Assembly (NCBI GenBank): GCA_000381625.1
Contig: KB906767.1
Span: 314,729-378,728 of the forward strand
DNA: 64,000 nucleotides
Source of the DNA: Bryobacterales bacterium KBS 96
GTDB lineage: Bacteria; Acidobacteriota; Terriglobia; Bryobacterales; Bryobacteraceae
Reading direction: 5' to 3'
The translations under genes were made by a program, and so were the position numbers. The notes beneath the pieces are model-generated. The model had not been told where the DNA came from and searched no databases. It saw only the letters and a list, made by a program, of their open reading frames with translations. How positions within the stretch are numbered: position 1 is the stretch's first letter; each line of letters begins with the position of its first letter. Of the stretch, positions 60,601 through 63,146 are shown one piece after another.

Positions 60601-61765
60601 AGATGCAGGCCGGGGATTCGCCCATAAGGTTGAGTTGCCGCGAGAGCGATGAATAAAGGGTCTTCACGCGCTGAAAAAACTGCTGCTCACTAAATTTCTG
60701 CTCCACCTGAAGGCGGGCGGTTTCGGACAAGCGCCGCGCTTCTTCTGGATTTCGAATCAGCAGCAAGAGTGATTCCGCAAGCTTCTCCGGAGAGGCATGC
60801 GGTACGAGCAACCCGGAGTGATTATGGACAATCGCTTCCGAAACGCCCCCGACATCCGTGGCGACAACCGGCTTTGCATAGGACATGGCTTCGAGCAGCA
60901 CCAGCGGAAAGCCTTCCGAGTGGCTGGATAGGACAAATGTATCGATAGCCGAGTAAAAGCGGTTCATATCTTGTTCAAATCCGGCAAATATGAAGTGCTT
61001 GCAAAGTCCTGCCTGATTGATCAGCGCCGCCAACCGGCCGTAATGCTCGCGGTGGGCCGGTTCTTTCTGATGGTCGCCGGCGATGAGAAAGCTGCATCGG
61101 GGGAAAGAATCGACAATCTTTTTCGCGGCTACGATCAGAGTCTCGAAATCCTTGCAGGGGTGCACGCGACACGCCATGCCAACCACAATGGCGTCGGGAG
61201 CGATGCCATAATGCCGGCGCGCCTCGTCGCGCGAAGCGATAGATGTAGATATTGCGGGCAGCGTGATGCCGTCATAAAGGACATCGCCACGTAGCGCGCG
61301 CTTTCGCATCGCGAACGTATCGCGCGTCTGCCTCGACACAAACACGAATCTCTGTACGGGATATAAAAAACTCTGATCGCGCTTGCTGATATCGCATGAC
61401 TGACAACGCACGTGACTCATGACAAAGGCGCCGGATAGACGACCGGCGAGCGCCGCATAGTGGGCAGCCAGAACGTCGGAACAGTGGACAATCCGTACCT
61501 GGTGGCGGCGCAGTTCATGCACGAGAAAGTGCGTCGCCCTCAGGTATGGACCGGGATTATGGTAACTCGGCTCTACCTGGTCATAACACGAGGTCACAAA
61601 GCTATGATCATGAAACAGTTGCCTCAGCTGCGTCGAGCCAGACGGGCAAAACAGAATGCTCTCGTAACCCGCCATGGCTAAGGCGTCGGCAAGGCGCAAA
61701 GTAGCCAGTTCGGTGCCGCCGATGTTAGGAAACGGCAGTATGTGCGCGATTCGGATCGGATTCAT
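60593..61765 (-). CDS. GT4-family glycosyltransferase
   Basis: A 390-residue retaining glycosyltransferase of the GT4/GT-B fold. The N-terminal domain has [23 protein letters not shown] (donor-site Gly-Gly). The C-terminal domain has [21 protein letters not shown], then [51 protein letters not shown], including the [11 protein letters not shown] acidic motif. It probably adds a sugar to lipid-linked glycan or exopolysaccharide. There are no membrane segments, so it would be peripheral. The convergent acylphosphatase overlaps it by eight bases. Confidence 0.93.
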
Positions 61766-61878
61766 GGGACCGCTCCGTACCCGGACCGCTTTCCCGGGGG
61801 CTGTATCTCTAACATAAGCATAGCCGATTGAAACCCGGTCACCACCGGACAGTGTAGAAGTTTTTATACGATACGTAC

Positions 61879-61908
61879 TTGCCAGAAGTCGTTTGATAAG
61901 TTTATACT
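61879..61908 (+). promoter_or_regulatory. candidate sigma70-type promoter of the attenuator
   Basis: TTGCCA (61879-61884), 18 bases, TATACT (61903-61908). The predicted start is about 61915, only a few bases before the leader ATG at 61918, so the leader peptide may be translated from a leaderless message. The call is based on consensus only. Confidence 0.5.
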
Positions 61909-61917
61909 CCTAATTTC

Positions 61918-61995
61918 ATGGCTATCGTGGTCGCCAACTATTACTCGTTTCGATTTTGGTTTTGGCCAGCTTCGAGCCGAGTGGCGTCTGCGTAG
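61918..61995 (+). CDS. aromatic leader peptide of DAHP synthase attenuator
   Basis: A 25-codon frame whose centre reads YYSFRFWFW (Tyr8, Tyr9, Phe11, Phe13, Trp14, Phe15, Trp16), so seven of nine consecutive codons specify aromatic amino acids. It ends with TAG at 61993-61995. It is followed by competing RNA structures and then by the DAHP synthase gene, the first enzyme of aromatic amino-acid synthesis. The peptide itself is not expected to act; ribosome stalling on it is. No Shine-Dalgarno is visible, which fits a leaderless start. Confidence 0.82.
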   Translation: MAIVVANYYSFRFWFWPASSRVASA

Positions 61996-62034
61996 ACCTG
62001 GATAAAAGGTACAGGAGTTAAAAAGGCCCACTCG
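61965..62034 (+). promoter_or_regulatory. antiterminator region of aro attenuator
   Basis: CGAGTGG (61978-61984, leader codons 21-23) is complementary over seven bases to CCACTCG (62028-62034), which is the 5' arm of the terminator. A competing local hairpin can form upstream (GCCA at 61965-61968 with TGGC at 61982-61985, enclosing GCTTCGAGC). A ribosome stalled near Trp16 would leave 61978-61984 free, while one at the stop codon would cover it. Confidence 0.7.
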
Positions 62035-62060
62035 AAAGCGAGTGGGCCTTTTGCTTTTTG
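62021..62060 (+). terminator. attenuator terminator before DAHP synthase
   Basis: AAAAGGCCCACTCG (62021-62034), loop AAAG, CGAGTGGGCCTTTT (62039-62052): a perfect 14-bp stem followed by GCTTTTTG. It lies between the leader stop and the aroF start, so its formation would prevent aroF transcription. Confidence 0.88.
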
Positions 62061-62108
62061 CAAATCACGCTCGCGGGATTCGCGAAGCAGTTATTCGGTG
62101 AGGCTCAC

Positions 62109-63146
62109 ATGATCATCTCTATGAAACTACATGCCACCAGGGCGGAAATCGACGCGGTTTTCGAGCGCATCCGCGACTTCGGATATAAGGTGCACTCGAT
62201 CGAGGGAGAAGAACGCGTCGTCATCGGCGTGGTGGGCGTGGGCGATGTTACGCCCTGCCTCGAATCCCTCGAAGCAATGCCGCAGGTTGAAAAAGCGGTG
62301 CGCATCTCCGCCCCGTACAAATTCGTGAGCCGTGAATTCCGGCCCGGCAAGTCCGTGATTCGAGCGAACGGAACCGATATCGGCGGCGACGAACTCGTGA
62401 TGATGGCCGGACCGTGTTCGGTGGAAAGCGAAAAGCAGATCCTCGAGACGGCGCACTCGGTCGCGCGATCCGGCGCCAAGTTTCTACGTGGCGGAGCATT
62501 TAAGCCGCGTACGTCGCCCTACGATTTTCAGGGCCTCGAGGAAGAGGGCCTGAAGCTTCTGCGAAAGGCGAAGCAGGAAACCGGCCTCGGCATCATCACT
62601 GAGGTGATGAGCGACCGCGACGTTCCGCTGGTCGCCGAATACGCCGACATACTGCAAATCGGCGCGCGCAATATGCAGAATTTCGCTTTGCTGAAAACTC
62701 TCGGTAAAGCTGGTAAGCCGGTAATGCTGAAGCGCGGCCTTAGTTCCACAATCAAAGAGTTGCTGATGTCCGCCGAATACGTCGTCGCGCACGGTAACCC
62801 CCACGTCATCCTGTGCGAACGCGGCATCCGGACGTTCGAGACCGCCACGCGCAACACCTGCGATATCGCGGCGATTGCCGTATTGAACGAGCTTTCTCAT
62901 CTGCCCGTGATTCTCGACCCTAGCCATGCGACGGGCAAGCGTAGCCTGGTGCCGCCGCTGTGCCGTGCGGGTGTCGCGATTGGCGCGGACGGATTGATCG
63001 TTGAGTGCCATCCCAGCCCGGAGAAGGCGATGAGCGATGGCGTACAATCGCTCTCCCTGCAGCAATTCGCGAACATGATGAACGAATTGCAGCCCTACAT
63101 TGCGCTCTGGAAGGCGGCCCGTGTCAGCGAAGCGGTCGTGGCGTAG
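62109..63146 (+). CDS. aroF: DAHP synthase (type I-beta, with N-terminal regulatory domain)
   Basis: A 345-residue 3-deoxy-7-phosphoheptulonate synthase, joining PEP and erythrose 4-phosphate at the entry to the shikimate pathway. The N-terminal 70 residues are a ferredoxin-like/ACT-like domain ([30 protein letters not shown]) that in I-beta enzymes binds Tyr or Phe. The TIM barrel follows: [66 protein letters not shown] and [17 protein letters not shown] 62109 has GAGG about seven bases upstream and agrees with family starts. Expression is probably attenuated by the upstream leader. Confidence 0.94.

Follow-up and report, generated by a model that had tools for sequence, protein, structure and literature searches.

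How is entry into the shikimate pathway controlled at this locus? In the 64,000-nt stretch of DNA that we analyzed (the window), a gene at 62109-63146 on the forward strand encodes an aroF-type DAHP synthase of type I-beta with a ferredoxin-like regulatory domain, as matches to PF00793, PF18152, NF006421 and TIGR01361 indicate; an earlier note had named it a DAHP synthase gene from the letters alone. The gene lies between a glycosyltransferase gene upstream on the minus strand and a PadR-like regulator downstream, and appears to be monocistronic. The DNA preceding it contains a leader frame with aromatic codons and three alternative stems, and we found conservation, compensatory changes, regular spacing and a recurrent promoter position among its relatives. 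It is very probable that aroF is controlled by a trp-type ribosome-mediated attenuator that senses the charging of tRNA-Phe, tRNA-Tyr and tRNA-Trp together.

The leader peptide ORF (MAIVVANYYSFRFWFWPASSRVASA) occupies 61918-61995 on the forward strand, with 25 codons, a TAG stop at 61993-61995 and a probable leaderless or near-leaderless start. Its seven aromatic residues all fall within codons 8-16 (YYSFRFWFW; 61939-61965), which include Tyr, Phe and Trp, and the earlier note had this frame and its codons correct at every coordinate. Among the 1,264 small frames (8-60 aa) on both strands of the 64,000-nt window, to which this chance count refers, only MAIVVANYYSFRFWFWPASSRVASA reaches seven aromatics per nine codons, the runner-up having five. 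A sigma-70-like promoter on the same strand (61879-61908) consists of TTGCCA at 61879-61884, an 18-nt spacer and TATACT at 61903-61908. It matches the consensus at 10 of 12 positions, where 0.4 such sites are expected from shuffles, and the AUG starts 9 nt after the end of the -10 hexamer.

The RNA downstream of this promoter can adopt mutually exclusive folds, all on the forward strand. The intrinsic terminator (stem 3:4; 62021-62052) is confirmed as the 14-bp helix first described, with 14 pairs, a 4-nt loop and a following GCTTTTTG, and folding of 62007-62056 gives -27 kcal/mol (z -5.6). Its U-tract is broken by GC in the window (CCTTTTGCTTTTTG), and most relatives have a stronger one; in the window, and conserved in relatives, the terminator sits between the leader ORF and the structural gene. 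The antiterminator pairs segment 2 (CGAGTGGCGTCT; 61978-61989), of which relatives keep GAGTGGCGTTGG, with segment 3 (AGGCCCACTCG; 62024-62034), which is also the 5' arm of the terminator. The previously proposed pairing of 61978-61984 with 62028-62034 is real, but folding lengthens the helix from 7 to 11 bp, interrupted by a single bulged base: 61978-61984 and 61986-61989 pair with 62024-62034, and the fold of this 60-nt stretch has an energy of -22.3 kcal/mol (z -3.7). All the stems named in the earlier note hold, but it had missed a fourth element, the protector hairpin 1:2 (61922-61995). Here, 61922-61935 and 61943-61947 pair with 61978-61995 around an inner hairpin (61949-61976) that holds most of the control codons, and the fold of 61918-62020 has an energy of -35.7 kcal/mol (z -2.8). 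The protector excludes the antiterminator, and the antiterminator, whose 5' arm lies near the end of the ORF, excludes the terminator. As predicted from these pairings, the protector, antiterminator and terminator make up a full four-segment design.

We compared the upstream regions of orthologues that had been picked by protein similarity alone. By our reading, the complete element is present in 21 of the 30 best orthologues (L001, L005-L033), the terminator alone is kept in L022 and L029, the aromatic frame alone in L031, and six of the 30 (L014, L017, L021, L023, L025 and L027) have no element. In a second family of the order, part of the members carry the element with a shorter aromatic run, and genus g38 is without it. 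We also scanned 84,980 species genomes with a pattern for segments 2-3-4 (GAGTGGYGT-N20..50-CCCACTC-N4..8-GAGTGGG) and obtained 81 hits. Records named as Acidobacteriota account for 79 of these, and most carry the name Bryobacterales or Bryobacteraceae. A DAHP synthase gene lies directly downstream in 76 of the 80 hits that were read, of which 78 are from Acidobacteriota; at L108 and L128, also from Acidobacteriota, the contig ends before the downstream gene. The remaining Acidobacteriota hit, L134, likewise shows this form of leader and terminator. Two hits in Actinobacteria (L075 and L120) have neither an aromatic leader nor aroF and were taken as chance. Conservation of segments 2-4 is partly selected in the scan hits, for the pattern fixes these segments; the orthology set is free of this bias. 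The leader codons, segment 1 and the promoter are omitted from the pattern and thus constitute independent evidence.

With a covariance model, the organism's own genome gives a single match (78 bits, E 6.8e-19). Across the class, 160 of 399 genomes have matches, a count that includes false ones in family f11. The six f11 matches that we read (L155-L160) are terminators alone, several of them beside rRNA genes and none before aroF, and were rejected as false. A minus-strand match at 62020-62110 was also set aside, since the terminator is palindromic and is simply read in reverse there. Within the class, families f1, f3, f6, f7 and f8 have genuine examples by our reading. The earlier note had named a lack of conservation in close relatives as grounds for giving up its reading; close and distant relatives alike keep the leader frame with its aromatic codons, the stems and the position of the promoter. 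In the protein tree, which has many weak branches, members without the element fall at some six or seven distinct positions, and such scattered absences among carriers would suit repeated loss.

The aromatic run is kept in 83 non-redundant leaders, in which aromatics account for 538 of 1,619 residues (33%; 286 Phe, 148 Tyr and 104 Trp), with a mean of 6.5 per leader and with Phe, Tyr and Trp all present in 68 of the 83. The aromatic fraction is 0.34 in frame versus 0.11 and 0.06 in the other frames, an enrichment that is partly built in by the rule used to collect the leaders (at least three aromatics in nine codons). This rule leaves the spacing, stop position and promoter position unbiased. 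Phe and Tyr codons alternate among synonymous forms in the relatives' leaders. The distance from the last aromatic codon to segment 2 is 16-20 nt in 61 of 81 leaders, with a mode of 17 nt, which would just let a stalled ribosome keep clear of segment 2. The stop codon is located no more than 2 nt from segment 2 in 38 of 81 leaders and 7-16 nt before it in 28 of 81, and in some leaders, the window's included, it lies 8-20 nt past the start of segment 2; a ribosome at such stop positions would cover segment 2 partly or wholly. With a 17-nt mode and with stops mostly on or just before segment 2, these positions fit the ribosome masking that the earlier note had proposed for stalling and for the stop codon.

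Might the peptide itself be the sensor, as a TnaC-like sequence-specific arrest peptide that responds through the exit tunnel to a free aromatic compound, rather than to tRNA charging? Conservation does go beyond aromaticity, since 65 of 83 leaders contain the motif [FYW]R[FYW], with FRFW as the most frequent four-residue version. However, the aromatics differ freely in number and order among leaders (YRYW, YWFW, WFYW and others), and the arginine is missing in some leaders. Its CGN codon is located in the 5' arm of the inner hairpin, which has a mean z of -2.5 in 81 leaders and a z below -1 in 62 of them, and this provides an RNA reason to keep the residue. Free-ligand arrest moreover normally raises expression when the ligand is abundant, which is the wrong sense for a biosynthetic gene. 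We consider an arrest peptide very improbable and tRNA charging the likely signal.

The stems were analyzed in a 72-row alignment. Stems 1:2 and 3:4 taken together have 93.4% of cells in standard pairs, versus 34-52% when the partner is slid by 1-3 columns, and contain seven pairs with double-sided changes, a score reached by 0 of 500 shuffles. Stem 3:4 alone is paired in 98.6% of cells in the 72 relatives, the 1:2 helix (columns 15-22/96-103) in 86.8%, with three pairs showing double-sided changes, and stem 2:3 in 96.5%, with five such pairs. Single compensations are rare because segment 2 must match segments 1 and 3, and segment 3 must match segments 2 and 4. In two relatives the whole set has been replaced together: GAGTGG/CCACTC/GAGTGG has become GAGCGG/CCGCTC/GAGCGG in L026 and CAGGCG/CGCCTG/CAGGCG in L036. 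The 1:2 duplex is weak or absent in some leaders, and a separate test of leader versus segment 2 duplexes gives a mean z of -1.6 over the leaders tested, with some values near zero, indicating that the strength of 1:2 is uneven among relatives.

These changes also bear on the proposal of a plain, unswitched intrinsic terminator that follows a small ORF unrelated to it. Each part is indeed common singly, and none of the others approaches the terminator in stability and invariance. Yet a plain terminator would not account for a segment 2 that is complementary to segment 3 at the level given above and that changes together with segments 3 and 4, nor for aromatic codons that hold a fixed distance to segment 2. 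We regard this explanation as very improbable and retain the attenuator.

We next consider where the leader message starts. The gap between the -10 hexamer and the leader start codon is 8-9 nt in 58 of 83 leaders, a peak somewhat sharpened by our choice of start codon, which was made partly by the -10 match where several were possible. The best -10 hexamer lies 6-12 nt before the start codon in 92.8% of leaders versus 14.8% of random positions, which would place the transcription start 0-5 nt upstream of the leader AUG. Shine-Dalgarno-like 4-mers precede only 5 of 83 leaders versus 67 of 80 aroF starts. By sequence, the position of the -10 hexamer and the absence of Shine-Dalgarno sites thus fit a leaderless reading, and the leaderless leader mRNA suggested in the earlier note fits both the gap and the scarcity of such sites. 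In L023, L027, L017 and L021, which lack the attenuator, the aroF start codon is preceded, at a distance of about 6-9 nt, by a -10-like hexamer, and aroF itself may be leaderless in several relatives without the element. The same short gap between promoter and leader ORF has no space for an extra aptamer, and the conserved parts are exactly those of a four-segment attenuator, which makes it exceedingly improbable that a T-box, riboswitch or protein-binding leader, frequent as these are upstream of biosynthetic genes, runs the terminator with the peptide incidental; an Rfam scan of 61000-63000 found no family at its gathering score (best Thr_leader, 24.1 bits versus 55).

We infer the transcription start, ribosome stalling, termination efficiency and amino acid response of the attenuator from this arrangement, as follows. 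Transcription would begin at or a few bases from the leader AUG, and the leaderless or near-leaderless mRNA would be translated. If any aromatic aminoacyl-tRNA is scarce, the ribosome would stall at codons 8-16 and mask or melt segment 1 and the inner hairpin, with segment 2 (from 61978) staying free. Segment 2 would then pair with segment 3, no terminator would form, and aroF would be transcribed. If all three tRNAs are charged, the ribosome would reach the TAG at 61993 and cover segment 2, 3:4 would pair, and transcription would stop near 62060. In an untranslated leader, 1:2 would form and again lead to termination. A ribosome at an early codon such as Tyr8 may be too far upstream to hold 1:2 open, and the three amino acids thus need not be sensed equally.

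The same genome contains two further DAHP synthase genes (52-54% identity), and no attenuator leader was found upstream of either paralogue; the attenuator can therefore not be the sole control of pathway entry. The paralogue at G000:C1:299519-300502 (L002) follows the apparent end of a chorismate mutase gene and has no attenuator, and DAHP synthase paralogues of family f11 (L176-L181) likewise follow an apparent chorismate mutase gene end with no attenuator. Upstream of the organism's own trpE-like gene, in a region read by eye, there is no such leader. Outside the class, a leaderless-looking leader with a WFWW run precedes another DAHP synthase paralogue in three genomes. In these loci (L169, L170 and L171), which belong to a further family beyond the class, the leader contains CANWFWWSWRFAEAAW or a similar run, comes right after a TTGACA/TACAAT promoter and is followed by the terminator CAACCCACCCGCGAGGGTGGG and then by the gene; they may be homologous to the window element or a product of convergence. 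At L168, from another Acidobacteriota class, bases 1-230 of the reverse strand carry a frame rich in Trp, YAWRWYSSTRWAVS, with the terminator CCCACTTCGAAAGAAGTGGG, ahead of a trpE-like gene, a probable Trp attenuator to judge by these parts.

A palindrome, CACCA-N8-TGGTG, was noticed upstream of aroF, with no more than one mismatch, in 5 of 10 loci without the attenuator versus 9 of 89 with it, the latter having been searched over a longer stretch. It is exact in L025, L027 and L035 and has one mismatch in L021 and L023, 78-106 nt upstream of aroF, and at L053 the inverted repeat and the attenuator are both present. The palindrome may serve as an operator in place of the RNA switch.

We compared the element to known attenuators. 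E. coli trpL and pheL follow the same 1:2, 2:3, 3:4 logic, likewise place their control codons inside 1:2 and end the leader ORF near segment 2, but they respond to a single amino acid, have Shine-Dalgarno sites and control a terminal branch rather than the pathway entry. At its shikimate entry, E. coli employs three separately regulated isozymes. Corynebacterium glutamicum aroR-aroF is described as a ribosome-mediated attenuator in which the leader peptide is aromatic (Phe-Tyr-Phe codons) and a DAHP synthase gene lies downstream (PMC4046766; PMC11802643 citing Neshat et al. 2014). As far as these accounts go, it differs in belonging to another phylum, in its three-residue control run and in its reported response under Phe limitation; compared by description, the Acidobacteriota leaders usually have 4-8 clustered aromatic codons and mostly include all three amino acids, Trp among them. 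In Sinorhizobium meliloti trpL/rnTrpL, the AUG of the leader ORF is also the 5' end of the attenuator RNA, and the leader peptide is leaderless (PMC7298713), as is predicted for the window element, but this system senses Trp only, precedes trpE(G), is found in Alphaproteobacteria and has a known trans-acting sRNA and peptide. Naville and Gautheret (2010) predicted premature terminators in Acidobacteria, of which, by their account, almost none has an associated function (PMC2965389), and the terms DAHP, aromatic and tryptophan are all absent from its main text by term search. Our search of the open-access literature found no description of the element. The claim that no such attenuator had been described in Acidobacteriota stands to this extent, but its novelty was somewhat overstated in view of the C. 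glutamicum and S. meliloti systems as reported. The mechanism is classical, and the family of this attenuator in Acidobacteriota appears to be undescribed. Its combination of a pathway-entry gene, three amino acids, a probably leaderless leader and a wide spread in one Acidobacteriota class is unusual.

These findings provide a functional assignment for a leader RNA in a phylum where the published survey had almost none (PMC2965389). Where the shikimate pathway begins, one RNA device would read all three end products, and the conserved absence of Shine-Dalgarno sites points to leaderless initiation as an integral feature of the attenuator. Its scattered losses represent a natural experiment on swapping an RNA attenuator for other control. 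On balance, we slightly favor a history in which the ancestor of several families of the class had a pan-aromatic leaderless attenuator at the pathway-entry gene, which was inherited and repeatedly lost, in some lineages with the palindromic DNA operator present instead, and in which, given that other classes have leaderless leaders of a similar kind ahead of a different DAHP synthase paralogue and a Trp leader ahead of a trpE-like gene, the phylum would use classical attenuation broadly.
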